Positions 1 through 20,062 of a DNA stretch of 64,000 nucleotides are shown here, piece after piece. The stretch comes from Lactobacillus hominis DSM 23910 = CRBIP 24.179 (GTDB taxonomy: Bacteria; Bacillota; Bacilli; Lactobacillales; Lactobacillaceae). The stretch covers positions 1 through 64,000 of the forward strand of contig NZ_CAKE01000022.1 in assembly GCF_000296835.1 (NCBI RefSeq), written 5' to 3'. Position 1 is the first letter of the stretch. Each line of letters begins with the position of its first letter. Made by a program: the position numbers and the translations under genes. Under the pieces are notes generated by a model, which made no database searches, was not told the DNA's origin, and saw only the letters and a program-made list of their open reading frames with translations.

Positions 1-14
1 AATATCATCAAACA

Positions 15-57
15 AAAAGAACCAAACAACTATTCTTTAGTTGCTTGATTCTTTTTC
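15..57. terminator. Bidirectional hairpin terminator at the left edge
   Basis: Arms near AAAGAACCAAACAAC and GTTGCTTGATTCTTT pair with two G-U wobbles. A-runs and T-runs on both sides let it work in either direction. It probably ends the gene lying to the left of the window. Confidence 0.55.
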
Positions 58-105
58 AAAACTATTCATCAACAGGATTTGACAAACAGCCTTTAATTTT
101 TATAC

Positions 106-158
106 AACAAAAAAGATCCAGCCTTTCGACTGGATCTTTTAAATTATGCTGACTAAAG
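106..158 (-). repeat. Displaced tRNA-Thr 3' end and terminator (attL side)
   Basis: This 53-bp stretch matches 19815-19867 with one mismatch. There the same sequence is the 3' end and terminator of an intact tRNA-Thr. Here only the last bases of the tRNA remain (146-158), preceded by the terminator hairpin (arms AAAGATCCAG and CTGGATCTTT, 112-139). This is the original tRNA tail, cut off when the element integrated. Confidence 0.85.
146..158. other. attL core of the integrated element
   Basis: The 13-bp sequence ATGCTGACTAAAG recurs exactly at 7867-7879, inside the 3' end of the intact tRNA-Thr. Direct repeats at a tRNA 3' end next to a tyrosine integrase gene mark the limits of an integrated element, here about 7.7 kb. 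Confidence 0.85.
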
Positions 159-218
159 CGCAGAGGTTTTAGCCAACACCCTTGATATATCAATATTTTT
201 AATAGGCACAATACTTGC

Positions 219-240
219 AAAGTGCAAATAAAGTGCATTT
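219..240. repeat. Tandem putative integrase arm-type sites
   Basis: Two adjacent 11-bp repeats, AAAGTGCAAAT and AAAGTGCATTT, sit between attL and the integrase stop. A related inverted copy, AATTGCACTTT, lies near attR at 7736-7746. The placement fits arm-type binding sites of a tyrosine integrase. The function is inferred. Confidence 0.45.
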
Positions 241-244
241 TTAA

Positions 245-1480
245 CTAACAATTCCAAAGTTGAGAATTTTCTTTATAAGATTCACGATTTTCCTTTACAT
301 AAGTTGAAAGAAAAACTTGAATAGTATTTCCCATTCTTTGGCAAGCATACATATTAGATATGCGATTATCATTACCTAATAAACTGCTTAAATAAACTCT
401 CAAAGAATACAAAGCTAAAATTGAATCTTTCTGTTTTTCAATCCCTGCATTCTTACAAACAGCTTTTAATTTTTCATTTAAGCTCTTTTGTGTTACCGGT
501 AATTGGTTATTTGAACTAATTGATTTATAATTATGTAAGTTCAGAAAGATGTATCCCGATGTATTTTTTAAACCATATTCATCGAGATACTTTTTTTGTT
601 TAATCTGAAAATCTTTAATCAAATCAATTACTTCAATATTCTTAATTGGCAAACAATATCTATAAGCGCCTTTGGGTCTGTCTTTCAAAGAACCATTAGG
701 CTTTTTTTCTTTTTCAGACCAGCTATCGTCAATTTTAAAAGTATAAGAGCCTTCATACTTTACTAGTTGATCAAACTTTAATACCTGTAACTCTTCTGGA
801 CGTAATCCAAGATAAGTATCAACAATTAAAGCGAGCCTAGACACAGAATTAGCAATCGTGGCTCCTTTATACTCTTTAAGTAATTCTTCCCTTAAAGCAC
901 TAACTTCATCTTTAGAAAATAAGTGCCACTTCCTACCAGTACTAAAATCAGACTGCTTAAAGAATAATTTTAGGTAACCTCTAGGAATTGGATTTACAGC
1001 AAGAACAGCCTTATCTATAAGGAAAGTAAAGAAAGTTCGAAAATGTGCTAAAGTTACATCTATTACGGTACTTTTCTTTACACTAGCCTTCGGATGATTA
1101 TTAAGATACCAATGTCCAAAATCGTTAAAAAAATGCTGGTCAATATCTCTTAATTGAATATCTACCTTTCTTTCCTGCTCAAGGTATTCATTTAACAAAG
1201 TTAATGAATATTTCCAGCTTCGATTCGTTGTCGCAGTAATAGACTGTGCCTTTTTTTCAACAAACTTGGTGTACTCAATTAAAAGTTGAGATTCATCAGT
1301 GATACTTGGTAAACCATTCTTATAGCTCGCATATTTCACTTTCAAATCAATTTCAAGCTTCTGTGCTTCAAGCTTACTATCAGCTCTTCTTGTTACACTT
1401 TTACGCTTGCCATTGACCATTGGTTGAATTCGCACTAGCCAAAGGCCTTTATATTTGCCCTTTAGAATTTTTTTGATCAT
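245..1480 (-). CDS. int: Tyrosine recombinase/integrase of the tRNA-Thr element
   Basis: This 411-residue protein should catalyse integration into and excision from the tRNA-Thr 3' end. Its N-terminus resembles the AP2-like integrase DNA-binding domain (KGLWLVRIQP then KRKSVTRRADSK, residues about 10-40). The middle is a SAM-like core-binding domain. The catalytic domain shows the first Arg in GLRPEELQ, a second Arg in YSLR, and a Tyr in FLSTYV near the C-terminus. Oddly, the usual HxxR box reads YxxR and the usual GH reads GN. The start is supported by AGAGG just upstream of the ATG. It is the last gene before attL and is followed by arm-site-like repeats. Confidence 0.9.
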   Translation of the reverse strand: MIKKILKGKYKGLWLVRIQPMVNGKRKSVTRRADSKLEAQKLEIDLKVKYASYKNGLPSITDESQLLIEYTKFVEKKAQSITATTNRSWKYSLTLLNEYLEQERKVDIQLRDIDQHFFNDFGHWYLNNHPKASVKKSTVIDVTLAHFRTFFTFLIDKAVLAVNPIPRGYLKLFFKQSDFSTGRKWHLFSKDEVSALREELLKEYKGATIANSVSRLALIVDTYLGLRPEELQVLKFDQLVKYEGSYTFKIDDSWSEKEKKPNGSLKDRPKGAYRYCLPIKNIEVIDLIKDFQIKQKKYLDEYGLKNTSGYIFLNLHNYKSISSNNQLPVTQKSLNEKLKAVCKNAGIEKQKDSILALYSLRVYLSSLLGNDNRISNMYACQRMGNTIQVFLSTYVKENRESYKENSQLWNC

Positions 1481-1542
1481 ATTAAACCTCTTTTATAAAA
1501 AGAGAGCGGAATAATGATCTCTTACATTATCCGCCCTCTTAA

Positions 1543-1734
1543 TTATTTTGTCCAAACTTTTTCTTGGTGATAACCTGCATCTTTTAACCAATCAACGACT
1601 TGATCAATCAAGTAAAAAGGTCTACCGCCTGGTAGTTGATGGTAGGGCATACCCGCTTTCCGAAATTTATACAATAGCGTTGTACTAATTCCTAAAGCCT
1701 CACATAATTCTTTACCAGTTAGATATTTGATCAT
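1543..1734 (-). CDS. xis: Excisionase-like MerR-type helix-turn-helix protein
   Basis: This 63-residue protein has a helix-turn-helix of the excisionase/MerR type: LTGKELCEALGISTTLLYKFRK, then a PGGRPFYLIDQVVDWL wing and helix. Such proteins bend attachment-site DNA and direct the integrase towards excision. It lies 62 bp upstream of int on the same strand, with a clear AAGGAG before its ATG, so the two are probably co-transcribed. A role as a transcriptional regulator cannot be excluded. Confidence 0.75.
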   Translation of the reverse strand: MIKYLTGKELCEALGISTTLLYKFRKAGMPYHQLPGGRPFYLIDQVVDWLKDAGYHQEKVWTK

Positions 1735-1826
1735 TATTATTCTCCTTAAATTGTTTTATAAGCAATTTTGGGATAGAATCAAATTAGTCGAGATTCTAGT
1801 CAATGCTTTTGTCGCTATCAGCATGA

Positions 1827-2897
1827 CTAGTATTTTTTTTGTGATTTTATCTTCCAAATTGCTTCTGCTATTTCTTCATCTTTAATTAGTTCATTTTTTA
1901 GATCACTATACGTATCCTCGGTTAACTTTAAAGAAACAATTCTTCTTTTCAATTGCTCAAACGAATCTACTACTTGATTTGAAATGTTACATTCAAAATA
2001 AAAACTAAGTGGATCATATGGTGTAGTGATATAAATTGAACGAGCATTGAGATAACGATCATGGTATCGTGCAGGCGCCATTTTATCAATTTCCCAAGGA
2101 TCTAAAAGAGTAAGCAATTGACCATAGTCGTAATCGTTGGGTCTAAGGTCATTAATTACTATGAATTCCTGACCTTTGTACTCTTGAAAGTGATCACGTT
2201 GAGACCCAAGAATAATAAAATTGTTGGGATGTAATTCTTCTAAAACTTCACGAACAAGTTTTGTTTTTCCAATTCCAGAAGATCCCCAAATCCAATAAGT
2301 GGTACACTTTTGTCCTTTAAAGTCTTTTAAAAATCGTTGATGTTTTTTATAAGCTAAAATGTCTTCAATATGATCCAACAACGTTTTATGTTTTGCCATC
2401 TCAAGGACACCAATTTTTTCTTGAAGTTCTTCTTTGGTTAATTGTTCATTTGAATAATCATCAATAAAATTCTCTATGTCATGTCTTGACGGTTTATTAA
2501 CTTTTTCCCTAATTTGTTTAATCCTTGTTACAAAGTCAAAAGATGCAACTACTTCACTAGGATCATAATGATGTTTATTTTTGGCATTAGTTGTCTCATG
2601 AATTAAGTAACTATATCCATTATTAATGGTATTGTGCCAAACTTCGACATATTGTTGTTGATCATTAAATAATTTAGCAATACGGGAAATTGTTTTTGCA
2701 TCTTTAAATTTTAAAATCACATGAAAATGTGGTCTAATTGGTTCGCCTTTTTCGTTAACATCTTTGTCATGAAGAATATACGCCCATTGTTCGGCATTCG
2801 ACTTTTCAAGTAGCTCTTTTAAGTCTTCCTGTTTGAATGGAAGGTGTTCAATGTCTTGGGTATACATGAATTGTCTGGCTCTTACAGCCTTTTTCAT
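1827..2897 (-). CDS. rep: HUH endonuclease + SF3 helicase replication initiator/relaxase
   Basis: The N-terminal half matches the Rep_2 (pMV158 RepB-like) HUH endonuclease family: LHDKD at about 42-46, the metal-binding HFH at 57-59, and a GYSYLIHET segment at about 94-102 holding the nicking tyrosine (Tyr95 or Tyr97). The C-terminal half is an SF3-type helicase: Walker A GSSGIGKT at 205-212 and Walker B FIVINDLRP at about 245-253. The pairing is known from rolling-circle plasmids, some integrative mobilizable elements and CRESS-DNA viruses. The protein should nick one strand at an origin or oriT and unwind it. I chose the ATG at 2897 (356 residues) because GGAGAG lies just upstream; a TTG 24 bases earlier has no ribosome site. 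The structured region 2922-3082 is its likely target. Confidence 0.85.
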   Translation of the reverse strand: MKKAVRARQFMYTQDIEHLPFKQEDLKELLEKSNAEQWAYILHDKDVNEKGEPIRPHFHVILKFKDAKTISRIAKLFNDQQQYVEVWHNTINNGYSYLIHETTNAKNKHHYDPSEVVASFDFVTRIKQIREKVNKPSRHDIENFIDDYSNEQLTKEELQEKIGVLEMAKHKTLLDHIEDILAYKKHQRFLKDFKGQKCTTYWIWGSSGIGKTKLVREVLEELHPNNFIILGSQRDHFQEYKGQEFIVINDLRPNDYDYGQLLTLLDPWEIDKMAPARYHDRYLNARSIYITTPYDPLSFYFECNISNQVVDSFEQLKRRIVSLKLTEDTYSDLKNELIKDEEIAEAIWKIKSQKKY

Positions 2898-2925
2898 CTT
2901 TACCACTCTCCTTTTTTGCACAATT

Positions 2926-2967
2926 TACACAATCTTGTGTAGGGGCTGAATAACAAGCTCTCAGCCC
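2926..2967. repeat. Inverted repeats upstream of rep
   Basis: There are two perfect inverted repeats: TACACAA/TTGTGTA (2926-2941, 2-bp spacer) and GGGCTGA/TCAGCCC (2943-2949 and 2961-2967). They sit just upstream of rep, next to the larger cruciform. They may be Rep or regulator binding sites. Confidence 0.5.
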
Positions 2968-3017
2968 AGAGCAATAGTGATTATGGATACTTTACACAAC
3001 ACATTTTACATAAAAGT

Positions 3018-3075
3018 GCGAGTGCCTTCGCTTACGCGTTATCCCTTGTCAGGGCACGCGTGCTACGGCACTCGC
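3018..3075. other. GC-rich nested cruciform, putative oriT/double-strand origin
   Basis: The outer arms GCGAGTGCC (3018-3026) and GGCACTCGC (3067-3075) are perfect. Inside them ACGCG/CGCGT (3034-3038 and 3057-3061) pair, and CCCT/AGGG (3043-3046 and 3051-3054) close a TGTC loop. The stretch is far more GC-rich than its surroundings and is non-coding. It lies between rep and the ATPase operon, where HUH initiators usually find their nick site. The nick position is unknown. Confidence 0.6.
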
Positions 3076-3082
3076 GTTCCTT

Positions 3083-3613
3083 TTATTTGGTTCCTTCGCT
3101 GATTAGATAATACCCTTGTCGTTCAAAACCTGTGAAAGAATAGTCAGGATTCTGACTAACAATTGATTCACGTAGTTTGTTTAGGTTGTCATCCAACAAT
3201 TTAGCTGCAGCAATGTTGATTGGTAATCTAATACAAATGTATAATTTATTATCTCTATATTCGCCATAGCTTTGGTAAAGATAAGAATTATATGTTTGTG
3301 TGATCGCATTAATTTTTCTTTTGCCTGTAAATTCATTAATTTCTGCTGGAATTACCAACATATGTTGAATATCAAATGTCAGCAAAAGTGATTTAATATA
3401 GTTAATTAAACTTTTGTGAACAATTTGAATTGCTAAAATGAGTAAACAGATTCCAGCAATAATAGTATTTACGATTAATGATTGAGCAATTTTTACTTTC
3501 CAAAAGTAAAATAGTGCCCAATTAATGGAAGTCAAAATCAATGTGCCCAAAAACATCATAAAAGGTAAATATAACTTAATGTGACTGGGTTGATATTTAT
3601 GATTTTCAATCAT
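3083..3613 (-). CDS. Small membrane protein of the mobile element
   Basis: This 176-residue protein is unrecognised. It has two strongly hydrophobic segments near the N-terminus (about residues 14-36 and 46-66), so it is probably anchored with a cytoplasmic C-terminal domain of about 100 residues. Its start overlaps the stop of the FtsK-like gene by 4 bases, so translation is probably coupled. The position suggests a partner of the translocase at the membrane, but no function can be assigned. Confidence 0.7.
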   Translation of the reverse strand: MIENHKYQPSHIKLYLPFMMFLGTLILTSINWALFYFWKVKIAQSLIVNTIIAGICLLILAIQIVHKSLINYIKSLLLTFDIQHMLVIPAEINEFTGKRKINAITQTYNSYLYQSYGEYRDNKLYICIRLPINIAAAKLLDDNLNKLRESIVSQNPDYSFTGFERQGYYLISEGTK

Positions 3614-4686
3614 AAAATTCCTCCTTTGATATTGTACGTAGGTGTTAATAGAGGTAACACCTGAAATGGATGAGTATTGTCGGTTATTTGAAAAAGACCT
3701 GTACCTTTTCCCGTTGGTATTAATATCCCATCAGGATCAATATCAAAAAGAAATTGTGTTGTTTTCTTATTGATATTGCCCAACTGCAAGCATACATTTG
3801 CCTGCTCACGAACGGCGATGGGAATAGCATCATTGCTAAAACGCTGGCTAATCAAAAGCAGGTGCACCTTCGTTGCTCTACCAAGAAGAGATATCTGTGA
3901 GAGTAATGAGAAGAAAGTATCTTTTATTTTTTTTGGCAATCCATCAGTTAAAGCCAGCACTTCATCAATACAAACTGTTAAATGCTTGAAGTGATGATGT
4001 GGATCGATGTAAAGGATTCTTTGACGCACATATATCTCTTTAACGACATTAGCCAATAGTTCATTACATTGGTTAACAAAATCGCTATTTGACATTTCTT
4101 CGGTTGGAAAGATTGTTCTATCTTCTAAACCATAGACATGCGCCCAACGCGCTGGCACATCACATTTTGGATCGATTATATACAGGTCAGAAATATCTTT
4201 TAAATAAAGAACTGTAAGTAAATATGTCAGCGTGTAGGACTTACCTGAACCAGAATTTCCAGCAATCAAAATTGAAGTTACTTTGTCATAGTCGATAGAT
4301 ACATCTTGCATTATTTCAATGTCTTTATTAGGATTGGAAGCAAGGTATGCATTCATATCTGTAATTGTGAGTCTTCTACTAATGCCAGTCCACGGATAGT
4401 AGAAGGCTCTTTTATTTCCAAAGTCTTCTTCATTTGTTGCAACAAGATACATAGTTGACTGCTTTAGCAAAGATTTAAGCGGATACAATGCAGAATTGGC
4501 AATCTTATAAATCCGCTGATAAAGGTCATTATCAATGATGTAACTTGCAGGTAAATGAGGAATGAAAAGAAAGCCATCATTCAACACCTTGACTTTAAAG
4601 CTGTTCGTATAACTTGTTTCACCTGAAAGATCAAGTGACATATTGAGACATTGGGTAATATAACGAGCAGTTTCACTACTTGACAT
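3610..4686 (-). CDS. FtsK/TcpA-like DNA translocase ATPase
   Basis: This 358-residue protein has Walker A GNSGSGKS at about 143-150 and a Walker B-like TVCIDEVLAL, followed by a Q-rich ISLLGRATKVHLLLISQRF segment typical of FtsK/SpoIIIE-type motors. No membrane segments are seen, so the small membrane protein downstream may supply the anchor. In Tn916/ICEBs1-like elements a protein of this kind (TcpA/ConQ) couples the relaxase-DNA complex to a conjugation channel. No other conjugation-channel genes are present, so the element is more likely mobilizable than self-transmissible. Its ATG overlaps the stop of the upstream small gene. Confidence 0.8.
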   Translation of the reverse strand: MSSSETARYITQCLNMSLDLSGETSYTNSFKVKVLNDGFLFIPHLPASYIIDNDLYQRIYKIANSALYPLKSLLKQSTMYLVATNEEDFGNKRAFYYPWTGISRRLTITDMNAYLASNPNKDIEIMQDVSIDYDKVTSILIAGNSGSGKSYTLTYLLTVLYLKDISDLYIIDPKCDVPARWAHVYGLEDRTIFPTEEMSNSDFVNQCNELLANVVKEIYVRQRILYIDPHHHFKHLTVCIDEVLALTDGLPKKIKDTFFSLLSQISLLGRATKVHLLLISQRFSNDAIPIAVREQANVCLQLGNINKKTTQFLFDIDPDGILIPTGKGTGLFQITDNTHPFQVLPLLTPTYNIKGGIL

Positions 4687-4997
4687 TATTTCATCACCTC
4701 AAGCCCGTTAGCTTTGAAGTATACGTTATTCCCAACCTCACAAGCTTCGAGATTTTGAAATTTAATTTTGGTAAACATAGATGGTAGGCTAACCTTATTA
4801 GGAAATTTAACCTTAAATGGTTCTGTTCCTTCAGCAATAAACCAGCATTGATAACCCGTTACTTCATCTGTAGGTTTTCCATTGACCCATTTAACTTGAG
4901 TATCTAAATTAATAGATAATGAGTAAGTTGAGACGTCACTTGGAATGTACATTTTGGCTAGTGCTTCTGAGTAGCCACTTGTTCGTTTGATTTTCAT
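4686..4997 (-). CDS. DUF961-like small protein of the mobile element
   Basis: This 103-residue protein is the first gene of the leftward operon. Composition and the pattern VNGKPTDEVTGYQCWF followed by beta-rich segments resemble the DUF961/YdcP-type proteins that precede the FtsK-like gene in Tn916/ICEBs1-type elements. That match is by pattern only. The ribosome site AGGAGG is about 10 bases upstream of the ATG. Its stop overlaps the start of the ATPase gene. Confidence 0.6.
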   Translation of the reverse strand: MKIKRTSGYSEALAKMYIPSDVSTYSLSINLDTQVKWVNGKPTDEVTGYQCWFIAEGTEPFKVKFPNKVSLPSMFTKIKFQNLEACEVGNNVYFKANGLEVMK

Positions 4998-5031
4998 TTT
5001 TTGAAAATCCTCCTTAATTAAAATTTATTTT

Positions 5032-5086
5032 GAAGATTTCTTTAATCTTCACTGTTTACTATAAAGTGTATGATGATAAAATACAC
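5032..5086. promoter_or_regulatory. Divergent promoter/operator region of the element
   Basis: The gap between the leftward transfer operon and the rightward regulator holds two inverted repeats: GAAGATT/AATCTTC (5032-5050) and GTGTAT/ATACAC (5066-5071 and 5081-5086). A plausible rightward promoter, TTTACT (5055-5060), 16 bp, TAAAAT (5077-5082), overlaps the second repeat. This suggests autoregulation by the adjacent HTH protein. The binding is inferred. Confidence 0.45.
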
Positions 5087-5133
5087 GTACAGCTTTATGT
5101 TCATAACTTTTGACGGTGAAAGAAGATATTATT

Positions 5134-6093
5134 ATGCCCAAACCTAAATATCCTATTCCTAATAACAATTTTCCTAGATTTATTAATGAATATTTAAGTG
5201 GTCATTCAGACTCACAAAATGACTTTGCGCGCAAAATAAATAAGCTAGTTCCAAAGAAACTAGCTATACCAATAGATAAGTCTGAAATGAAAAGCGGAAA
5301 TTCCAATATTTTTAGTTGGAAAAAAGGAAACAGACCCAAAGAACCCGTTATTAGAGAGGCTTTATGTAAGATTTGTGCAATTGATTATATTGAAACTCTT
5401 TTTCTTATTCCAGCTAATGCTACTGAATATTTAATGAAAGTTTATAACTATATAAAGACTTTCATTGAAGACTTTGATATTGGTGAAACGGAAATTTCGT
5501 TAAATATGTACAATATAGGTTTTATAATATCTAGTAATACTCGTGCAAAAAAATATTTGAATTTGAATTATTTAATAAATTTAATAATTCGTGCCGAAGA
5601 GGATAGAAAAGACATCTTTAATAATGTTGCCTTAAAAAAGTTCTGTGATGATGGATTTAATGAAAATGACTATAGTATATTGTTTGAACCGCAACCACCA
5701 TTTACTTTTTTTGAGTTCTCTAATTCTAATCTTCATATGATAAACGAAAAAAATAACTCGTATTTATATCCACCAAGTTGTATGTTTTCTAAACTGAGTG
5801 AAAGCTTTAATAATTTACAGCCAGATTTAGAATTTATGCTTAGCGATGATGATTGGAACACAGATAACTATAATTATAATTACTTTAGAATGTGTCTTTT
5901 TAATGATACGTCAGATGAAAATATATTATGTTTTAATACAGCAATCAATTTGCTAATTGAGTGGATAGAAAAACTGGATAAATTTTATTTAAATGAGTTA
6001 GCTAAAATGGGAATAGATGAAGATAATACTTTTTACAAAAGATCAGCTGAAACTATGCTTGAGAATAATGATTTTTTCGGTAAAAGAAAATAA
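5134..6093 (+). CDS. HTH (XRE-like) regulator of the mobile element
   Basis: This protein has about 319 residues. Its N-terminal third has a helix-turn-helix pattern (SQNDFARKINKLVPKKL, then NIFSWKKGNRPKEPVIREALCKI), like phage and ICE repressors. The remaining 200 or so residues are AT-rich coding and unrecognised. It is divergent from the transfer operon and shares an operator-like intergenic region with it, which fits a master repressor or activator. The start is uncertain: an upstream in-frame TTG would add 8 residues. I prefer the ATG at 5134, which has a weak AAGAAG upstream. Confidence 0.6.
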   Translation: MPKPKYPIPNNNFPRFINEYLSGHSDSQNDFARKINKLVPKKLAIPIDKSEMKSGNSNIFSWKKGNRPKEPVIREALCKICAIDYIETLFLIPANATEYLMKVYNYIKTFIEDFDIGETEISLNMYNIGFIISSNTRAKKYLNLNYLINLIIRAEEDRKDIFNNVALKKFCDDGFNENDYSILFEPQPPFTFFEFSNSNLHMINEKNNSYLYPPSCMFSKLSESFNNLQPDLEFMLSDDDWNTDNYNYNYFRMCLFNDTSDENILCFNTAINLLIEWIEKLDKFYLNELAKMGIDEDNTFYKRSAETMLENNDFFGKRK

Positions 6094-6353
6094 TTAATAA
6101 TCTTAAATATGAAAATACAAAAGACTATTTACTTCAGAGTATTAAAAATAATATTTTTATTGACACCGATTGGGCAGGTACATTACGTATTTTTTTAAGC
6201 ATTAGGTAAATAAAAAATTTAAAAATACAAGATATTGATTATTTGCTCATTATCACCCTGATCATATGAATTTATGATCAAAGTATTCAATTAGTGACCG
6301 TTAAAATATTACTAATGTCAGTAGACGGAAATTATTTATTTTTTAAATAAAAT
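6094..6353. other. Non-coding AT-rich stretch with possible coding relic
   Basis: No complete gene is seen. One frame just after the regulator stop stays open for about 40 codons and contains KDYLLQSIK and IDTDWAGTL, ending at about 6209. It has no start or ribosome site and lies in another frame than the regulator, so it may be a decayed gene end. The rest shows nothing recognisable. Confidence 0.3.
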
Positions 6354-6384
6354 AAAACCAAGTTGAAAATCAACTTGGTTTTTT
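6354..6384. terminator. Terminator between the element regulator and the cad operon
   Basis: The perfect 12-bp arms AAAACCAAGTTG and CAACTTGGTTTT have a 5-base loop. T-rich flanks on both strands let it end the rightward regulator and the leftward cad operon. Confidence 0.85.
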
Positions 6385-6432
6385 GGCTTAATTATTAAGA
6401 TTTTCTAGAGCTACTTATGAATTAATAGCTAA

Positions 6433-6470
6433 ATTTACCAGCATACTGGTAAATGCTACATACAATGTAG
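6433..6470. repeat. Inverted repeats downstream of cadC
   Basis: ATTTACCAG/CTGGTAAAT (6433-6454, 4-base loop) and CTACAT/ATGTAG (6456-6470) are perfect. Without T-runs they are weak as terminators. They may stabilise the 3' end of the cad transcript. Confidence 0.4.
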
Positions 6471-6572
6471 TTCTATTACTAACCTCTTTAGTAAAGTTTA
6501 TTAATATAAAATACGTTCTATCTCGATTTTTCGAACAAAACAACCCATTTTGTAAAAATATTAATTACAATC

Positions 6573-6926
6573 TTATTTATTAAGTTGAGCAAATAATTCT
6601 TTCAAATCATCATCCTTAATAAAGTAGTACGCCATTTTCCCTCTTTTTTCACGACCTAAAATATTCTCGTCGTAAAGCTTTCTTAAATGGTGTGAAGCAG
6701 TAGCAATACTACAATCCAAAATATATGCAATATCACAAACACAGAGTGATTCTTGTGCAATCAATGAAAAAACGATTTTTAATTTCTTTTCATCAGAAAT
6801 CTTAGATAATGCATAAAAGTATTTCTTTATATTTGGTTTGCCAAGAAAGTCTGAAACTTTTATCACTTTATCTGTTTCTACTAATGTTTGGTCACAAGTG
6901 ATATCAGCTTTATCTAAAACGTCCAT
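6573..6926 (-). CDS. cadC: ArsR/SmtB-family metal-sensing repressor (CadC-like)
   Basis: This 117-residue winged-helix repressor has the CadC-type metal box LCVCDIA at about residues 61-67, the recognition helix SIATASHHLRKLY and a basic wing. An N-terminal Cys11 could complete the thiolate site, as in CadC, which releases operator DNA when Cd, Pb or Zn binds. It lies 16 bp downstream of cadD, the order also seen for cadD-cadX pairs. The likely operator is the perfect palindrome at 7579-7612. It is cargo of the integrated element. Confidence 0.85.
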   Translation of the reverse strand: MDVLDKADITCDQTLVETDKVIKVSDFLGKPNIKKYFYALSKISDEKKLKIVFSLIAQESLCVCDIAYILDCSIATASHHLRKLYDENILGREKRGKMAYYFIKDDDLKELFAQLNK

Positions 6927-6942
6927 AAGTTTACCTCACTCA

Positions 6943-7560
6943 TTATTTGAATAAGTTAATTATAAATTGAATTGATCCATTTTCAATTAAAACAGAACCG
7001 CCAATAAAAATATAGACGAATCCTATGAACCAACGACTATATTTTTCAAGAACCGCACCTATAGTAGGAACATTAGCCATCTTTTGAGCAACAAAAACTA
7101 ACAAGAAAATCATTATCAAAAATACAATCAAGGTTATCACTAAATTCAATGGTGTCAAACTAATGAAGTAAGGTACAAATAGTCCAATATTATCAGCCCC
7201 ACAACTTACGATAGTAATGAACATAAGAGTTCTTATTAAATTCATTTTATTATTACTATTCAGTTCCTTATTGGCCATCTTTTCACCATCGGAGTCACCA
7301 AAAATTAAAGCCTTTAATCCTAAAAATATAGGGATTATTCCAAGTAGTCCTAATAACCGCTTATCAGGAACATAATGCAATATAAAAGCAAAGAATAAAC
7401 TAACTAGTATTAGAACATCAGATCCAAGGAATTGTCCTATATAAATGTCTCTAATACCTTTTTTGTCTTTAATTTTGGCAAAGAAGAGCATCAAAATTAT
7501 TAATAAATCTATAGCGGTACTACTATATGTGATTGCACTGGTAATAATAGTTTTTAACAT
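6943..7560 (-). CDS. cadD: CadD-family cadmium resistance transporter
   Basis: This 205-residue membrane protein has about five to six hydrophobic helices. The N-terminus MLKTIITSAITYSSTAIDLL closely follows the CadD family pattern, including the acidic residue in helix 1. CadD proteins export or sequester cadmium. I start at the ATG at 7560, preceded by GGAGG; a possible ATG 27 bases further upstream lies inside the operator palindrome and is unlikely. It forms an operon with the metal-responsive repressor. Confidence 0.85.
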   Translation of the reverse strand: MLKTIITSAITYSSTAIDLLIILMLFFAKIKDKKGIRDIYIGQFLGSDVLILVSLFFAFILHYVPDKRLLGLLGIIPIFLGLKALIFGDSDGEKMANKELNSNNKMNLIRTLMFITIVSCGADNIGLFVPYFISLTPLNLVITLIVFLIMIFLLVFVAQKMANVPTIGAVLEKYSRWFIGFVYIFIGGSVLIENGSIQFIINLFK

Positions 7561-7578
7561 TTTATTTCGATTTCCTCC

Positions 7579-7642
7579 AAATAACATTCAAATCTACATT
7601 TGAATGTTATTTTGGAATATTTGAATCTAAATGTCAAGACAT
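7579..7642 (-). promoter_or_regulatory. cad promoter with perfect 15-bp-arm operator palindrome
   Basis: The palindrome arms are at 7579-7593 and 7598-7612, with core ATTCAAAT...ATTTGAAT and a 4-base spacer. This is like known CadC operators. Upstream on the minus strand lies TTGACA (about 7631-7636), with a poor -10 about 17 bp on, next to the palindrome. A further half-site, ATTCAAATATT, lies between them. Repressor binding would block the promoter. Confidence 0.7.
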
Positions 7643-7667
7643 CTTTATTTTTTTCTTTAAAAAGTAA

Positions 7668-7698
7668 AAAGATCATGGTCTACATGACCATGATCTTT
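7668..7698 (-). terminator. Element-borne terminator downstream of the rebuilt tRNA-Thr
   Basis: The perfect 13-bp arms AAAGATCATGGTC and GACCATGATCTTT are followed on the minus strand by a T-rich tract. It lies inside the element, where the transcript of the intact tRNA-Thr would run, and so replaces the displaced host terminator. Confidence 0.75.
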
Positions 7699-7866
7699 AT
7701 CATTACATTATTCCGCTCTTAACACCGTGTGCAAAAATTGCACTTTAAAAATTTAACTGCGTGCACTTAGTGTGCATCATTTTTCTTTACGCAAAAAAAT
7801 TAACCTCAACTTACCTTCGTAAAACGTCGATAAATCAAGGTTAATCAATCTAAATGAATCTTTATA

Positions 7867-7879
7867 ATGCTGACTAAAG
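7867..7879. other. attR core of the integrated element
   Basis: This is an exact copy of the 13-bp attL core, located in the acceptor and T-arm end of the intact tRNA-Thr. The element supplies this side's junction while the tRNA stays complete. Confidence 0.85.
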
Positions 7880-7940
7880 GATTCGAACCTTCGACCTCAT
7901 CATTACTAATGACGTGCTCTGCCAACTGAGCTAAGTCAGC
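7868..7940 (-). tRNA. tRNA-Thr (anticodon AGT)
   Basis: On the minus strand the 73 bases fold as a cloverleaf: acceptor GCTGACT/AGTCAGC, D-stem GCTC/GAGC, anticodon stem CGTCA/TGATG with loop TTAGTAA (anticodon AGT, reading ACU and related Thr codons), and T-loop TTCGAAT. CCA is not encoded. It is identical to the copy at 19856-19928. It is the integration target of the element to its left. Confidence 0.95.
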
Positions 7941-7991
7941 ATCAACACATAATAGTATATCAGATGCGGTCAAAAAAGCAAGCATAAATTT

Positions 7992-8642
7992 TTATTCTTT
8001 ATTTACAACGGTAATTCTTTCTTTGCTGTGCTCTGGATACAAGATTTCATTAACAACTAACTTAGCCATTGTGCCGTTAGTTACCTTGGATTCGCCATTT
8101 TCATCATAAAGTAATTCATCGCCACCTACTTCATAAGCAGTCGCAGGACCTGCTTCGTAAGTTAATGATGGGGAAATTCCTAGCCAATCAACGTCATCGA
8201 CGCCGTTTAAGTAGTCTAGCTCTTTAAGTTGTTGCTCTGGAACATTGATCCAGTCTTTAGCGCCCGGCATTTGTGCGATGTCTTTAACAACTAAGTGGTG
8301 ATCTTCACCGGTGCGCAGACTGCCTGCACCTAAAATAAAGATCACTCTAATCTTATTTTTACGCGCTAAGTCGATCAACTTTCTAGCTAAAACTAATTGA
8401 TCGCCTGCTTGAGCAGGAATTGTGCCGAATGCATCGACAATTACGTCAAAGTTTTTAAACATGCTGTCGTTCATCGTCAACACGTTGCCAATAACTAAAT
8501 TTGCATCGTCGCCTAATACGCGGTGAGCCTTGGCTTCATTTCTAACAATTCCAGTAACTTGTAAAGTAGGATTTTGTGATGCTAATTTATAAATTGCACT
8601 TTCAGCCATGCCAGAAGCGCCGATAATTCCAACCTTTGTCAT
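7992..8642 (-). CDS. NAD(P)-binding Rossmann-fold protein (atypical SDR/NmrA-like)
   Basis: This 216-residue protein starts with a dinucleotide-binding turn (GIIGASGMAESAI, residues about 5-17). Later it has VIFILGAGSLRTG and PEQQLKELDYLNG segments typical of the NAD(P)H-binding family related to NmrA and atypical short-chain dehydrogenases. The substrate is unknown. An AGGA-rich site precedes the ATG. It is transcribed alone, divergent from the UPF0237 gene, and lies just outside the mobile element. Confidence 0.8.
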   Translation of the reverse strand: MTKVGIIGASGMAESAIYKLASQNPTLQVTGIVRNEAKAHRVLGDDANLVIGNVLTMNDSMFKNFDVIVDAFGTIPAQAGDQLVLARKLIDLARKNKIRVIFILGAGSLRTGEDHHLVVKDIAQMPGAKDWINVPEQQLKELDYLNGVDDVDWLGISPSLTYEAGPATAYEVGGDELLYDENGESKVTNGTMAKLVVNEILYPEHSKERITVVNKE

Positions 8643-8810: not shown

Positions 8811-9077
8811 ATGAAAGCAATTCTTACTGTATTAGGCAAAGACAAAGTTGGTATCGTAGCCAGCGTTAGTCAAGTTTTAGCCGAAAATGACATTAACATT
8901 TTAGACGTTTCGCAAACTATCATGGACGATAATTTCGTCATGATGATGATGGTTAATGTCCCTAAAGATAAAGATTTTGCTGATTTAAGCGCCAAATTTA
9001 CTGACTTAGGTAAAGACTTAGACGTTGAAATTAACTTGCGTAACGAAGAATTATACGACGCAATGCACCAACTTTAA
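8811..9077 (+). CDS. ACT-domain protein of the UPF0237 family
   Basis: This 88-residue protein is a single ACT domain: KAILTVLGKDKVGIVASVSQ, then the helix and NINILDVSQT strand that form the ligand pocket. ACT domains usually bind amino acids or similar small molecules. It is followed after 11 bp by the UPF0210 gene, an association conserved in many Firmicutes, so the two probably act as a sensor and effector pair. The exact role is unknown. AAGGAG precedes the ATG. Confidence 0.9.
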   Translation: MKAILTVLGKDKVGIVASVSQVLAENDINILDVSQTIMDDNFVMMMMVNVPKDKDFADLSAKFTDLGKDLDVEINLRNEELYDAMHQL

Positions 9078-9088
9078 GGAGAAAGTAA

Positions 9089-10432
9089 ATGGACGCAAAT
9101 CAAATCTATGAAACAAGCCAGATGCTATCTAGCGAAAACTTAGATATTCGTACAATCACGATGGGAATTTCTCTGCTTGACTGTATCGACAGCGATAGCG
9201 ACCGCGCTTGTCAAAAAATCTACGATAAAATCACTACTAAGGCTCGCGACTTAGTAAAAGTTGGCGAGCAAATTGAACAAGAATATGGCATCCCAATTGC
9301 TAACAAACGCGTTACTGTAACGCCGATTTCTTTAATTGCCGCTGCAAGTGACGATAAAGACTACGTTAAATATGCCAAAACTTTAGATCGAGCAGCCAAA
9401 GAATTAGGCATCGACTTTATCGGTGGCTTTTCAGCGCTAGTTGATAAAGGCTACCAAAACGGAGACCGCATCTTAATCAACTCACTTGCTCAAGCATTAA
9501 GCGAAACTAACTACGTTTGCGCCAGCGTTAATGTCGGCTCTACCAAAAGCGGCATCAACATGGACGCAGTTAAGCAAATGGGCGATGTGATTGTCCAAGC
9601 TTCTAAACTCGACATGATGGCTAATGCTAAGTTAGTCGTCTTTTGTAATGCAGTTCAGGATAATCCGTTTATGGCCGGTGGTTTTCATGGCGTTAGCGAA
9701 CCAGATGTTGTCATTAATGCTGGTGTTTCTGGACCTGGCGTAATTAAAGCTGCTCTTGAAAAAGTTAAGGGGCAACCAATGGACGTTGTCGCCGAAACAA
9801 TTAAGCAGACAGCTTTCAAAGTAACGCGTATGGGGCAATTAGTTGGTAGCGTTGCCGCTGATAAACTCGGTGTGCCTTTTGGCATTGTTGACTTGTCACT
9901 TGCTCCTACTGCTGCACCTGGCGATTCAGTTGCCGAAGTTTTAGAAGAAATCGGCGTTTCGCAAGTCGGCACTCACGGAACCACTGCTGCTTTAGCAATG
10001 CTTAATGACGCAGTTAAAAAAGGCGGGATCATGGCATGTAGCCACGTAGGTGGACTTTCTGGTGCCTTCATACCTGTCTCTGAAGATGCAGGTATGATTA
10101 GTGCTGCTGAAAATGGAACGCTTAACATCTCCAAATTAGAGGCCATGACGGCTGTTTGTTCAGTTGGTTTAGACATGATTGCCATCCCTGGCGATACGCC
10201 TAAAGAAACAATCAGTGCAATGATTGCGGACGAAGCAGCTATCGGTATGGTTAATAGTAAAACTACCGCTGTTCGCGTAATTCCAGTTCCTGGTAGAGGC
10301 GTTGGCGAAGACGTTGAATTTGGTGGCTTGCTCGGTCATGCACCAATCATGGCTGTTAACCCAGCTCCAAGCGATCGTTTAATCAACCGTGGCGGTTTAA
10401 TTCCAGCTCCAATTCACAGTTTTAAGAATTAA
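9089..10432 (+). CDS. UPF0210/DUF711 (PFL-like) protein
   Basis: This 447-residue protein of the UPF0210/DUF711 family is sometimes labelled PFL-family because of a similar fold. Glycine-rich motifs such as [14 protein letters not shown] and [13 protein letters not shown] are visible, as expected for the family. The biochemical activity is not established. It is translated just after the ACT-domain gene (AAGGAG in the gap) and its transcript ends at the strong hairpin at 10451-10479. Confidence 0.88.
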
Positions 10433-10525: not shown

Positions 10526-13500
10526 TTAATCATTCTTTCTCTTCTTAGTGCCAGCTAAACCAATTAAACCTGCAAGACTTGCTACGGCTAAGCCGATCAC
10601 GCCAGCATTGTTTTCACGTGCACCAGTTTGTGGTAATTCTTTACGTGAAGCATTGCTGTTGCTCTTTGCATTATCAGCATTGCGTGAAGCATTAGCATTT
10701 GCATTTTGACCATTTACGCCTGCTAAGCCGTTTGCATTAACGCTACCAACCTTGATTGCGTTAATTGCAGCTAAGCCCTTAGCTAATGCAGCATCTACGC
10801 CTGAATCACTAGTAGCAGCACCAATATTAGCTTTAGCATCACGAGCTGATTTTGATACTAAATCTCTTAGGTGTTCTTTTTGTGAAGCAGATAAGTTAGC
10901 GCGATTGATTTCTTCGTTCTTAGCATTGGCAGCCTTATCAATTTCAGTAATTGCTGAATCTTTCTTATCGCTAAGTGATGGAATAGTGATCGCATTAATT
11001 GCGGCGATACCGTTGTTCTTAGCAAGTTCAACAGCTTGCTCATCTCTTGCATTACTAATGTTAGCTTTAGCAGTGTTTGCGGCATCAGTTGCATCAGTAA
11101 TTAATGCAGCTTTTTCGCTATCGCTTAAGTGGGATGCATTGTTGATTTCGTTAACCTTGTTAGCTAATGCTTGGTCAATTGCTTGAGTTGCTGAATCCTT
11201 AGCATTGTTCAAAGCAGCTTGGTCGTTAGTATCATTGCCCGCATTACCTGAATCGCCAGTTGTATCGGCTGGAACAACTACTTTAGCAATTGCATCAAGA
11301 CCATTTTGCTTTGCGCTAGAAACTTGATCATTAGTTGTAGCAGCAGTAATTGCACCAATTGCGTCGTTAGCGGCCTTATTAGCAGCTTCAGTCAAGCTAT
11401 CTCTTTGAGCTTGTGGTAAGTAAGTTGCATTGTTAATTTCATTAAGTTTGCTATTTAAAGCACTCTTAATTTCATCAACAGCACTATCTTTAGCTTCAGC
11501 TAGACTTGGAACCTTAACATTATTAATTGCATCTAAGCCTTGAGTTTCAGCATCCTTAACACCATCGTTAGTTGTTGCATTCTTGATATTTTCTTTAGCA
11601 GTTTCGGCTGCTTTATTTACTTTATCAATTAAGTCTTGCTTAGCCTTATCGCTCAAGTTAGAAGCTTTATTAATCTCATCAGTCTTAGATTTTACAGCAT
11701 TATCAATGGCATCATTAGCATTTCGTTTTGCACTATCTAAGGTTGGGATGAACAAGTTGGTGATTTGATCAATTGCATTGTCACGAGCAGTCTTAACAGC
11801 ATCATTAGTTGTAGTTGCTGGATCGTTGATCTTGGCAATTGCATCATCGGCAATCTTGTTTACTTGATCAGTTAAGTTCTTTTGCTCTTCAGGACTTAAG
11901 TTAGTTGCATCAGCAATTTGCTTATTCTTAGCTTCTTGAACTTGCTTGATGGCATTGATTGCGTTTTGTTTAACTTCATCAAGACTTGGAACAGGTACAT
12001 TAGCAATTGCTTCAATACCCTTGTTTTGGGCATTGGTTACAGCATCGTTAGTGGTTGCCTTAGCGATATTGTCCTTGGCAGTATTAGCCTCATCAGTAGC
12101 CTTCTTAATCAAATCTTGCTTCTCATCTTGTGACAAGTTAGAAGCATTGTTAATTTCATTAGTCTTATTAGTTAATGCATTATCGATAGCATCAGTTGCA
12201 GCCTTCTTTGCATCATCTAAGTTAGTGAAGTTAACGCCCCTGATTGCTTCGACACCATCCTCTTCTGCCTTCTTAACATCATCGTTAGTGGTTGCCTTAG
12301 CGATATTGTCCTTAGCAGTATTAGCCTCATCAGTAGCCTTCTTAATCAAATCTTGCTTCTCATCTTGTGACAAGTTAGAAGCATTGTTAATTTCGTTAGT
12401 CTTAGACTTCAATGCATCATCAATTGCTTGGTTAGCATCCTTCTTAGCATTATCAAGACTAGGAATCTTTACATCTTCAATCTTCTTAACACCTGTATCA
12501 GCTGCTTGCTTGGCTTCATCATTGGTCTTAGCATTGTTAACGTTGTTAATTGCATCAGTAGCAGCCTTAGTAGCATCATTAATTAATTGTTGCTTTTCAT
12601 CATTTGACAAGTTAGAAGCATTGTTAATTTCATCTTTCTTCTTATCTAAAGCCTTATTGATTAAGTCAGTACTTTCTTTCTTAACATCAGATAAGCCTGG
12701 AACAGTTACATCGGCAATTGCCTTTTCACCATTAGTTTGAGCAGTTTCAACATCTTGAGTAGTAGTTGCTTTGTTTATGTTGTCGTGAGCCTTGTTTGCG
12801 GCATCAGTAGCTTGCTTAATGAAATCTTGCTTTTCTTGATCAGTTATGTTAGTAGCATTATTGATTTCGGCTTCTTTGTTCTTCAAAGCCTCATCAATTG
12901 CCTTATTTGCGGCATCCTTAACTGGAGAAGTAGTTGGCACATTAATCTTGTCAATAGCATTTACGCCATCTTCTTGTGCCTTAGTTACTGCTTCTGGAGT
13001 TGTTGCGTTAGCAATGTTTTGTTTTGCATTATTAGCTGCGTCATTAACTAAATCAGTGTAAGTCTTCTTTTCCTCATCAGTTAATGGATCCTTAATTTCT
13101 TTAAGTTTTCCAGCTGCTTCGTTATCAATTGCGGCATTTGCTACTGTCTTATCAATACCAAGTTGCCCAGCATCAGTGGCCTTCTTAACATCATCATTGG
13201 TTTTAGCATTGTCAATGGCATCTTGAGCATTTTTAGCGTCGGTATCAATTTGATTCTTGGCTGCTTGCTTTTGATCATCGGTTAAGTTGCTGTCTTGATC
13301 GATAGCATCCTTAGCATCTTGAACTTGCTTATCAAGGTTTTCTTTGGCCTTGTCTTTTTCTGGTGAAGTTGTTGGAACTTGAATACCTTTAATTGCATCA
13401 ACGCCATTCTTTTGAGCAGTAGTTACCTCTGCTGGAGTAGTTGCGCTATTAATGTTATCCTTTGCATTCTTCACTTCGTTAGCTACTTGATTACGCCACT

Positions 13501-16500
13501 TGTTTTGTTCATCAGTAGTTAATGGAGAACCAGCAATTTCTTTGTTCTTGCCAGCTGCTTCGTTATCAATTGCGGCATTTGCTACTGTCTTGTCGATAGC
13601 AAGCTTACCAGCATCGATTGCATTGTTGACATCAGTATCATTCTTAGCAGCATCGATTGCCTTTTGAGCATTCTTGGCGTCGTTATCGATTTGATCCTTA
13701 GCTGCTTGCTTTTGATCATCGGTTAAGTTGCTGTCTTGATCAATTTCCTTCTTAGCATCATCAGCTGCTTTATTGATGTTGTCTTTTGCTTCTTCTTTTT
13801 GAGTTGAAGTTGATGGAACTTTAATATCATCGATCGCAGCAACACCAGCGTTTTGTGCATCTTTTACTGTTTGTTCAGTATTAGCGGCAGAAATTTCACC
13901 CTTAGCATTCTTTACTGCTTGAGCTACTTGATCTTTAATGCCGTTCTTTTCTTCAGCAGTTAATGAAGATCCATCGATGGCTTTATTTTTGCCAGCAGCA
14001 GCATTGTCAATAGCAGCATTGGCGACAGTCTTGTCGATAGTAACTTTACCGGCAGTTGCAGCAGAAGTTACTGCGTCGTTAGTAGCAGCCTTATTGATAG
14101 CTTCTTTTGCAGCGCTAGCATCTTGATCTACTTGAGCTTTAGCTGCATTTCTTTCGTCTTCAGTTAAGTTAGTATCTTGATCGATTGCCTTCTTAGCTGC
14201 ATCAACAGCAGTAGTTAAATCAGCAGTAGCTTTTTCCTTAGCATCCTTAACATTAGTTGTAGCACTAGTAGTTAAAGCCCTCTGTGCGTCTGTAATTGCC
14301 TTAGTTGCTCTATCAACATCGGCTTGAGTCAATGGAGATGGTGCTGTAGTTGGATCCAATAATTGTTGACCTGCTTTTACTGCATCATCGTATTGCTTTT
14401 GAACATCAGCACTAGCATCTTTGTAGTCATTGCCTGCTTTCACAGTATCAGCATTATTAACTGCTGCTGTAAGCTTGCTGGTGTCAGTTGCCTTACCATC
14501 TAATGCGTTCTTTGCTTCATTAATCTTATTCAATGCAGTTGTTAAGCTTTCAACTGTTGGATTTTGAGCGTTTAATGCATCAGTACCAGCACTAATTGCT
14601 GTGTCATATGCTTGTTGCTTAGCAGAATCGGCATTGTAGTATGCTGGGGTCTTTTCTGTAGTTGACTTGGCATATACTGCTTGTTGCAATGCATCTTTGG
14701 CATTTTGTAATGCTGAGCTATTGTCTAATGCTGTCTTTGCATTAGTTAATGCTGTGTTTGCTTCATTTACTGCTTGTTGTGTTGCATTTGGATCTGCTAA
14801 TACTTGGTTAGCTTTATCAAGTGCATCAGTGTAATCTTGCTTAGCTTGAGCATCAGCATTGCTCTTATCAAGATCTACTGCATTATCTACACTATTTTGT
14901 AAAGTGGTTTTATTTGTTGGGTCTCCGTCTAACGCGCCTTTTGCAGCATTAATATTATCCAATGCTGTCTTTATTTGATCTGCTGTAGCACTTGGATTAT
15001 CTAATACTTTTTGACCTTCTGATACAGCATTCTTATAGTCATTTTGTGCTTTTTCAGTGCCGTTATAGTACTTAGAAGAAGTCTTTTCAACTGTTGGTGC
15101 TTCTTTTACTGCATCTTCAAGAGTAGCCCGGTTAGCAGCTTCTGTCTTAGCATCTCCGTTCAATTTGCCATTGGCAGTATTAAGATCTTTTAATGCTTGA
15201 GTTACTTGAGCCTGAGTTGCATTCTTGTCGTCCAAAACGCTTTGAGCCGCTGTTACTGCATTGTCGTATGCTGTCTTTGCATTTTGATCAGCATTAGTGT
15301 AGTTATTGCTGTTCTTGATGTCTTTAGATTTATTAACTGCATCTTGAAGGGCATCTTTATTTGTTGGTTGACCATCTAATGCAGCCTTTGCATTAGTAAT
15401 TGCATCTAATGCATTCTTGACTTCTGCTGGAGTTGCATTGCTTTTATCTAAAACTGCTTGTCCATCAGTAATTGCCTTATTGTATGCATCTTGAACTTTG
15501 CTACCTCCGTTATAGTATGCTGGAGTATTTCTTACATTCGGTGCGTCCTCCACTGCATCTTCAAGAGCTTGCCTGTTAGCGGCATCTGTCTTGGCATCTC
15601 CGTTCAATTTGCCATTGGCAGTATTTAGATCTTGCAATGCTTGATTTACTTGAGCCTGAGTTGCATTCTTGTTGTCCAAAACGCTTTGAGCCGCTGTTAC
15701 GGCATCATCATATGCTGTCTTTGCTGCTGGATCGGCATTAGTGTAGTTGTTGCTGTTCTTAACGTCTTTAGATTCATCAACTGCATTTTGAAGATCTTGC
15801 TTATTGGTTGGTTGGCCATCTAATGCATTTTTAGCATTGTTAATATTCTTTAAGGCAGCTGTTAAGCTATCAACTGTAGCATTCGAATCATTTAATGCAG
15901 TACTACCGGCAGCAACTGCATTGGTATATGCTTTTTGCTTAGTAGTGTCTGCATTGTAATAAGTTGCAGAAGTCTTTTCAAAGTCTGAAGCTGCATCAAC
16001 AGCATCTTGAAGATCTTGTTTTACCTTGTTGAGATCACCGTTTAAAGCAGTCTTAGCATTGACGATGGCATTAGCTGCAGCTTCAAGTTGTTCTGAAGTA
16101 GCACTGGAATCTTGAAGAAGAGTAGAACCAGCACTAATTGCACGTGTATAAGCAGTCTTAAGATTGTCAGTAGCATTAATGTAGTTAGAGCCTTTTTCAA
16201 CATTAGGAGCTTCATCAACTAACTTTTGTAATTGATCACGGTAAGAACTAGTCATCCAGTCAGAAACAGTCTTAGTATCCGTATCACTAGTTACAAAGTC
16301 CTTAGCTGCATAAAGTGAAACTTGGTCGTTATCGTTTAACTTACCTAAGTTAACGCTAAATTTACCATCTGCTCCTGTTTCAGCAGTGTAAGGAACTTGA
16401 GAAGAAGTTGGATCTCCAGTTTCGCCAACGGTATAAAGAGTTTGTTCACCAGAAGTAGGAACTTGCTTAACTGTACCATTTACAGAAATGTACACGTAAG

Positions 16501-18502: not shown

Positions 18503-18723
18503 ACAATCCTCTCCTAACAAAAATAGCCCAGGCCTGATCAATTTATTTTTATTGTATACGTAATACAATGACAACAAGTAAAGATCTAGTCTAAGCAAAA
18601 TGTTTTTCTTTAACCTAGATTTACGAGTAAATTTCTCGTTTAATTCTACATTTATATAATAACATCTTTGCTTCCAATAAACATCCACAAATAAGTTATT
18701 AAAAAGTAAAATTACATATCAAT
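18503..18723 (-). promoter_or_regulatory. Adhesin 5' region with palindromic operator-like site
   Basis: The untranslated region upstream of the adhesin is AT-rich. It contains the inverted repeat ATTGTAT-ACGTA-ATACAAT at 18551-18569, about 50 bp upstream of the start codon, where a promoter would be expected. A clear -35/-10 pair cannot be assigned. No gene is seen. Confidence 0.4.
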
Positions 18724-19850: not shown

Positions 19851-19855
19851 AAGTA

Positions 19856-19928
19856 TGCTGACTAAAGGATTCGAACCTTCGACCTCATCATTACTAATGA
19901 CGTGCTCTGCCAACTGAGCTAAGTCAGC
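19856..19928 (-). tRNA. tRNA-Thr (anticodon AGT), second copy
   Basis: It is identical over all 73 bases to the gene at 7868-7940, with the same cloverleaf and AGT anticodon. Its downstream terminator nearly matches the displaced tail at the left end of the mobile element, so the two loci are a recent duplication or are kept alike by conversion. It is an unused potential attachment site. Confidence 0.95.
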
Positions 19929-20062
19929 ACGTTGCTTAACGCAATTATTAATTTAACCATACAACTAACAGTAATGCAAGCAATTTTTTTGTAATTTGGT
20001 TTTTCATACAAAAAGACTAAAATATAGTTCAGTAATTATCTATGTATTAAGGAGATCTTCAC

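Follow-up and report, generated by a model that had tools for sequence, protein, structure and literature searches.

A compact element at a tRNA-Thr gene of Lactobacillus hominis resembles integrative and mobilizable elements and carries a conserved hairpin upstream of its rep gene

Integrative and mobilizable elements (IMEs) whose relaxase combines the domains PF01719 and PF00910 have been described in streptococci, some of them with a TcpA protein (PMC5357655), and TcpA-type helpers have been proposed for this class (PMC5704250), according to the accessible parts of these papers. Here, we analyzed a stretch of 64,000 nucleotides from Lactobacillus hominis DSM 23910 (the window), which starts at base 1 of contig C15 in a genome of 1.93 Mb and contains an integrated element at positions 146-7879. 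The element fits the published IME class with a PF01719-PF00910 relaxase. With a probability of roughly 0.7 we consider it an IME whose Rep protein acts both as rolling-circle initiator and as relaxase, whose coupling protein is split and which uses the channel of another element. Elements of this kind are already known; what appears to be new, judged from the literature covered, is a hairpin loop common to many bacteria, which emerged from the comparison of relatives.

In the accessible parts of the literature (PMC5357655, PMC5704250, PMC7563491), the streptococcal Rel_PF01719-PF00910 IMEs, e.g., IME_Seq35246_rpsI, have a relaxase with Rep_2 and RNA_helicase domains, in some cases a TcpA-type coupling protein, a compact row of xis and tyrosine integrase genes and an integration site at the 3' end of a conserved gene or tRNA. 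The window element shares these features. Its Rep has both relaxase domains, the compact order of TcpA, relaxase, excisionase and tyrosine integrase is present with a membrane-protein gene between ATPase and Rep, and the element, bounded by direct repeats, is inserted where a conserved gene has its 3' end. It differs from the streptococcal elements by its genus, an ATPase without membrane segment, a separate membrane-protein gene and a conserved 103-aa gene. The plasmids pCRESS4-8 of the YLxH supergroup share with the window element a nuclease-helicase Rep with YLxH in motif III, site-specific integration and the lack of viral structural genes (PMC6668415, PMC8780604). This likeness is one of Rep motifs; the accessible parts of these papers treat the Rep, and no origin hairpin or coupling protein was found there. 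A link to streptococcal mobilizable elements and CRESS-type Reps had already been drawn in a preliminary description of this stretch and agrees with what could be seen of PMC5357655 and PMC6668415. Within the genus, Tn7088 of Lactobacillus crispatus is likewise an IME at the 3' end of a tRNA-Thr gene, with relaxase, xis, tyrosine integrase, a cargo module and two FtsK-type open reading frames (ORFs), and its excision was shown by PCR (PMC10763512, accessible part). In contrast to the window element, Tn7088 has a Rep_trans (PF02486) relaxase, a bacteriocin cluster as cargo and FtsK-type pieces of 183 and 264 aa (same source); PF02486 is not among the 12 profile matches of the window Rep. Finally, the Staphylococcus plasmids SAP110B and p5GD01 (L233, L234; G and L numbers are our handles for genomes and loci) carry a homologous Rep together with an FtsK-type gene of 353-363 aa, which is 29% identical to the window ATPase. 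Unlike the window element they are autonomous plasmids with no integrase among their listed genes, and hydrophobic segments are lacking in the small protein encoded between their Rep and FtsK.

The borders of the element are formed by the 13-mer ATGCTGACTAAAG, which lies at 146-158 (attL) and at 7867-7879 (attR). The second copy ends flush with the 3' end of a tRNA-Thr gene on the minus strand (7867-7941). In another genome (G094, L207) the site is uninterrupted: the sequences corresponding to window 109-158 (96%) and 7867-8003 (97%) are contiguous there and overlap by exactly 13 bp. A second, identical tRNA-Thr, also uninterrupted, is located at 19855-19929 of the window and still has its terminator hairpin directly attached. 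At the tRNA-Thr of the element, the same terminator (111-140) is displaced beyond attL. This displacement and the exact 13-bp overlap in G094 show that the repeats are not due to chance. The reading frames of the element are intact between the two repeats. To the left, window 1-105 is a multi-copy repeat with numerous matches in this genome and its relatives, many of them where contigs end, and is perhaps the end of an insertion sequence; therefore, little unique left flank is present.

Transcription from right to left covers, in this order, the genes for a 103-aa protein, the ATPase and the membrane protein, then non-coding DNA that contains two hairpins, and finally rep, the xis-like gene and int. 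The tRNA-proximal side is occupied by a divergent ORF and by the cadmium cassette, which consists of cadD and the gene of an ArsR-type repressor. Rep (356 aa; 1827-2897, minus strand) consists of an HUH nuclease with the YLxH signature of the supergroup (PF01719, E 4.5e-25) and a helicase of superfamily 3 (SF3) type (PF00910, E 1.8e-10), and is the putative initiator and relaxase. Residues H57, H59 and Y97-L98-x-H100 are invariant in 9 of 9 aligned Reps, as are the Walker A residues G205, G208, G210, K211 and T212. In phages, 15 records matched the N-terminal part of Rep with 26-43% identity over 22-41% of the query. The ATPase (358 aa; 3610-4686, minus strand) matches PF01580 (E 2.2e-7) and, in a comparison with a TcpA profile (E 2e-19), covers its columns 196-421, i.e., the motor half of TcpA. 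This profile was built for hhalign from four TcpA proteins out of eight fetched loci, as L053 repeats L052 and L055, L057 and L059 yielded no full-length TcpA. Unlike TcpA with its N-terminal membrane segments in the same protein, the window ATPase has no hydrophobic segment according to hydropathy. The adjacent gene (3083-3613, minus strand) encodes a 176-aa protein with two hydrophobic segments at residues 12-30 and 47-65, spaced much like those of the four TcpA proteins (15-43 and 59-80). A natural reading of these sequences, which we propose here, is that the soluble ATPase and the 176-aa protein, its putative membrane half, form a split coupling protein. A profile comparison of the 176-aa protein with the ATPase's own N-terminus gave no link. 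Structure prediction was weak, with two sequences for each protein: the mean predicted local distance difference test (pLDDT) score was 56 for the membrane protein and 40 for the 103-aa protein. The tyrosine-type integrase (411 aa; 245-1480, minus strand) was recognized by its SAM-like domain (PF13102, E 1.1e-6) and by alignment with PF00589-matching relatives. The Xis-like helix-turn-helix protein (63 aa; 1543-1734, minus strand) matches HTH_17 below the curated cut-off (E 7.9e-4) and the excisionase/regulator profile phrog_66 (E 8e-6). In profile searches no VirB4 or other channel gene was found on the element above the cut-off; VirB4 models match the ATPase weakly. The preliminary description had named the att repeats at the tRNA-Thr, with an empty site expected in related strains, an HUH-SF3 Rep, an FtsK/TcpA-like ATPase, an integrase with xis, a small membrane protein, cadmium cargo and the lack of conjugation-channel genes, and all of this is borne out.

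The conserved structured DNA of the element is located upstream of rep (2943-3075). A putative origin or nick hairpin lies at 2943-2967 on the minus strand, with the stem GGGCTGA/TCAGCCC and the loop GAGCTTGTTAT. In the genus loci, a stem of variable sequence with the loop G(G/A)GCT(T/C)GTT is located upstream of rep on the rep-sense strand. Since the fold of the window hairpin alone is just mildly better than that of shuffles (z -1.87), the case for it rests on conservation. A strict rule was applied, i.e., a perfect stem of at least 6 pairs and a loop of 8-15 bases with GCTTGT, at most 500 bases upstream of rep. Of the 21 genus loci, which do not include the broken G033 copy (L027/L031), 16 have the hairpin, as do 22 of 25 order-wide loci (those with fetched sequence among 32 listed places outside the genus) and 8 of the 11 plasmid records included out of 34. 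None was found on the opposite strand in any of the three sets, and shuffled sequences gave 0 of 420, 0 of 500 and 1 of 220 hits, respectively. The genus loci are the set in which the hairpin was discovered; the order-wide loci and the plasmids were examined later with the motif in hand. Strict misses were L193 (a G-T pair), L021 (a 16-base loop), L196 (GCTCGT) and L024 and L022 (hairpin 1614 and 865 bases upstream, respectively); L213, L215 (variant loop GGACTTGATA) and L216; and L236, L238 (variant loop GGGCTCGTTA) and L242. L236 and L242 have no hairpin of this type anywhere in their sequence. With a relaxed rule (at most 2700 bases upstream, variant loops allowed), which was widened after the strict result was known, the motif is present in 21 of 21 genus loci and 23 of 25 order-wide loci. 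Between hairpin and rep, L024 (8683-10295) and L022 (1439-2284) contain several related ORFs of about 110-150 aa with no assigned family.

The stems of the hairpin covary, and their sequences differ widely, unlike that of the loop. In the genus (19 distinct hairpins) the mean perfect stem is 9.0 pairs, compared to 3.3 when the 3' arms are exchanged between loci, and the highest of 5000 permutations reached 5.84. The order-wide stems (20 distinct) average 10.15 pairs versus 3.19 after arm exchange, with a highest permutation of 6.00; both sets of figures are inflated by the relatedness of the loci. Among the plasmids, the hairpin is carried by records from, e.g., Staphylococcus, Lactiplantibacillus, Lactococcus, Leptotrichia and phytoplasma, whose Rep identities are about 21-30%. 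In SAP110B and p5GD01 a hairpin with the loop GGGCTTGT is located upstream of rep. We predict that Reps of this class cut at the hairpin with the G(G/A)GCTTGT loop. The nick of phiX174 and pC194 is CTTG/ATA, and the loop GGACTTGATA of L215 recalls this sequence; by this analogy our guess is that Rep nicks after CTTG. On the rep side of the hairpin, repeat analysis revealed short direct TGTGCA/TGTGTA repeats (2916-2935, minus strand) as possible Rep binding sites. A repeat of at least 6 bases at 9-13 bp spacing occurs on this side in 11 of 20 loci (L199 was left out as near-identical to L198), compared to 5.7% of mononucleotide shuffles; nine of these 11 repeats belong to the TGTG kind, the other two being AT-rich. 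Similar TGTGT repeats were noted by eye on the far side (2990-3010, minus strand). A rolling-circle origin usually combines a site for binding with one for nicking (PMC5714925, accessible part). In the part of the literature covered, no origin or nick site was found described for the PF01719-PF00910 class, and a prior description is possible. A second, longer hairpin follows the membrane-protein gene (3018-3075, minus strand; z -5.36, 0 of 200 shuffles fold as well). Similar hairpins are present in several relatives, and it may serve as single-strand origin or form a structure in the transcript. The preliminary description had also proposed a structured non-coding region and rolling-circle replication. 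The first proposal holds for the two hairpins upstream of rep but not for 6100-6245, which is unstructured (z -0.14), nor for 6245-6390, where the folding score is due to ordinary hairpins, one of them terminator-like. The second receives indirect support from the conserved hairpin and the Staphylococcus plasmids, whose gene tables, though incomplete, list no other rep beside the homologous Rep and the FtsK-type gene. These plasmids argue that this Rep type can act as replication initiator.

To follow the spread of the element, we used 75 genomes of the genus, one per species. Rep homologues (E 0.001 or better) were found in 22 of them; 20 were counted as Rep-positive, with the fragments in G078 and G007 excluded. 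The genus relatives have the same gene order. A copy in G061 shows 97.1% nucleotide identity over window 109-7941, including cad, and a copy in G089 shows 97.5% over 147-7940; G033 holds a partial copy (96.8%). The gene to the right of the tRNA is just 68% identical in G089 (L205), and the homologous stretch in G061 69%. This single-gene control is a small yardstick, but the comparison with element copies of about 97% points to a recent horizontal spread. A further control region (8811-10432) is 84% identical in G094 and has no match in 5 of 6 genomes, so it is unusable as a yardstick for the others. Exchange of modules was also observed. G067 (L202, contig C91) and the window have int and xis in common with 90.5% identity and the cad region with 93.3%, and differ in the core, with 40.6% identity for Rep and 31.9% for the ATPase. 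Ends, cargo and core are therefore exchanged as blocks. In plasmids no near match of the element was found.

Taken as an IME, the element would work as follows. Recombination by Int and Xis at the 13-bp att sites would release it in circular form. Rep, of the YLxH/PF01719-PF00910 class, would then nick the loop of the hairpin at 2943-2967 and unwind the nicked strand with its own helicase domain, accompanied by rolling-circle copying. The 358-aa TcpA-type motor and the 176-aa membrane protein would jointly hand the Rep-bound strand to the conjugation channel of another element, and the transferred circle would integrate at the tRNA-Thr of the recipient. Cargo, here cad, and cores would be swapped between such elements.

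Several observations weigh against this reading. All of its steps from excision through nicking and replication to transfer are inferred from the sequence, as is the part that the membrane protein plays. The integrase has no PF00589 match in the domain-profile search, unlike its relatives, and two conserved His positions are changed (RHT to RVY and MGH to MGN). Its catalytic domain is divergent, yet copies with 94-98% identity are present in other genomes. The best alignment of the 176-aa protein with the TcpA profile is collinear but not significant (E 0.068), and its identity as the N-terminal part of TcpA is not supported by it. Moreover, its counterparts in L024 and L022 have no hydrophobic segment. 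Several copies of the element are decaying: int is split into two frames in G061, ATPase and Rep are each in two frames in G089, and int, Rep, membrane protein and ATPase are broken in G033. The helper channel raises a further difficulty. TcpE, the marker of the Tn916/ICEBs1-type channel, was found in none of the 75 genus genomes, including that of the window. In other families it was detected in 6 of 14 genomes, and of the controls B. subtilis was positive. VirD4 (PF02534) is present in 11 of the 75 genomes (5 of 20 Rep-positive and 6 of 55 others), but not in the window's genome. For AAA_10, 70 of 75 genomes were positive; most of these matches lie in frames of about 800 aa, which is the length of host FtsK, and in the window's genome a single match, below the cut-off, falls in an 831-aa frame of that size. 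With one genome sampled per species, the absence of a helper is weakly established. A few other genomes have weak AAA_10 matches in frames of 550-690 aa, which could be VirB4-like channel ATPases; in G019, G022, G064 and G096 the frames measure about 676-684 aa, and all four genomes also match VirD4. A combined proposal seems rather unlikely to us: that the hairpin is the joint replication and transfer origin of Reps with the CRESS layout, and that the Lactobacillus Rep and its two-part coupling device of soluble motor and separate membrane subunit would spread DNA between species without the presumably required TcpA-type channel, via VirD4-type channels or no other element's channel.

The same evidence was weighed for other explanations. 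IMEs of this class have the same order motor-Rep-xis-int (PMC5357655, accessible part), and the ATPase is closer to TcpA (E 2e-19) than a generic motor match would need. Both points make it unlikely that the locus is an integrated rolling-circle plasmid, in which Rep would replicate the circle, the motor would segregate or resolve circles, and spread would occur by transformation or transduction. This explanation draws on Reps of the same layout, which the accessible part of PMC6668415 describes as coming from plasmids integrated into bacterial chromosomes, on the homologous Rep and FtsK-type genes of small plasmids typed as non-mobilizable, and on the window's genome, in which no helper (TcpE, VirD4, AAA_10) was detected. 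Very unlikely, in our view, is an autonomous transfer in which Rep, the FtsK-type motor and the small membrane protein would act without a helper channel. In conjugative elements of actinomycetes, DNA is moved by the motor alone, and the minimal gene set is the same. The lack of TcpE in all 75 genomes and of VirD4 in 15 of 20 Rep-positive genomes would fit such a transfer, given copies of about 97% identity in different species. However, helpers could be missed with this sampling, the partner protein in L024 and L022 lacks a membrane segment, and the ATPase is TcpA-like and, without a hydrophobic segment, differs from the membrane-anchored FtsK/TraB-type translocases of actinomycetes; its anchor may be supplied by the 176-aa protein. 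A phage satellite packaged by a helper phage is extremely improbable and was rejected: the element is compact and located at a tRNA gene, but its lone terminase-type match (phrog_2666 to the ATPase, E 3e-8) fits the shared ATPase fold, the phage-profile search matched no capsid, packaging-redirection or other structural gene, viral contigs gave distant ATPase matches only (22-31% identity, 80 of 100 matches kept) and none for Rep or the 103-aa protein, and the two ATPase matches in phage records are distant.

The conserved 103-aa protein (4686-4997, minus strand) is encoded by the first gene of the operon, shows 42-70% identity to five relatives and has no Pfam match. It had been described as DUF961-like, which we reject: PF06125 gave no match, with a probability below 1% in the profile comparison, and a search of the window's genome and of 24 further genomes of the genus did not find this family. 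The divergent ORF (5110-6093, plus strand; start TTG 5110 or ATG 5134) has homologues in relatives and no family match; by its position, our guess is a regulator. As cargo, the element carries an ArsR/SmtB-family repressor (6573-6926, minus strand; PF01022, E 4.7e-12; NF033788 above cut-off) and the cadmium-resistance transporter CadD (6943-7587, minus strand; PF03596, E 9.9e-71; TIGR00779 above cut-off). A self-match revealed an inverted repeat upstream of cadD (7579-7612), which is likely the operator of the ArsR-type repressor. Rfam gave three matches at E up to 1, of which the tRNA alone is credible. Just past the element, window 10526-18688 encodes a repetitive surface protein of 2720 aa, which has a signal of SIRK type at the N-terminus and an LPQTG motif at the C-terminus. 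Besides the element at tRNA-Thr, the window's genome contains a second, similar one (L020, G000:C35:102000-120000), which is located next to rpsI and in the vicinity of a Type ISP restriction gene. A relative in L. taiwanensis DSM 21401 (L030) also lies beside rpsI, close to a restriction gene of MmeI type and a PDC-S50 candidate.

The relaxases of the PF01719-PF00910 class have been named from their protein domains, and their helpers are merely proposed. A loop conserved from Lactobacillus elements to plasmids of Staphylococcus, Leptotrichia, Lactococcus and phytoplasma offers a direct target for nicking assays. Its motif would also permit a search for elements that have the hairpin only and are mobilized in trans. 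In addition, the hairpin bears on the relation of CRESS-virus Reps to bacterial plasmids. For the genus, the absence of TcpE in 75 genomes turns the choice of channel into a testable question.

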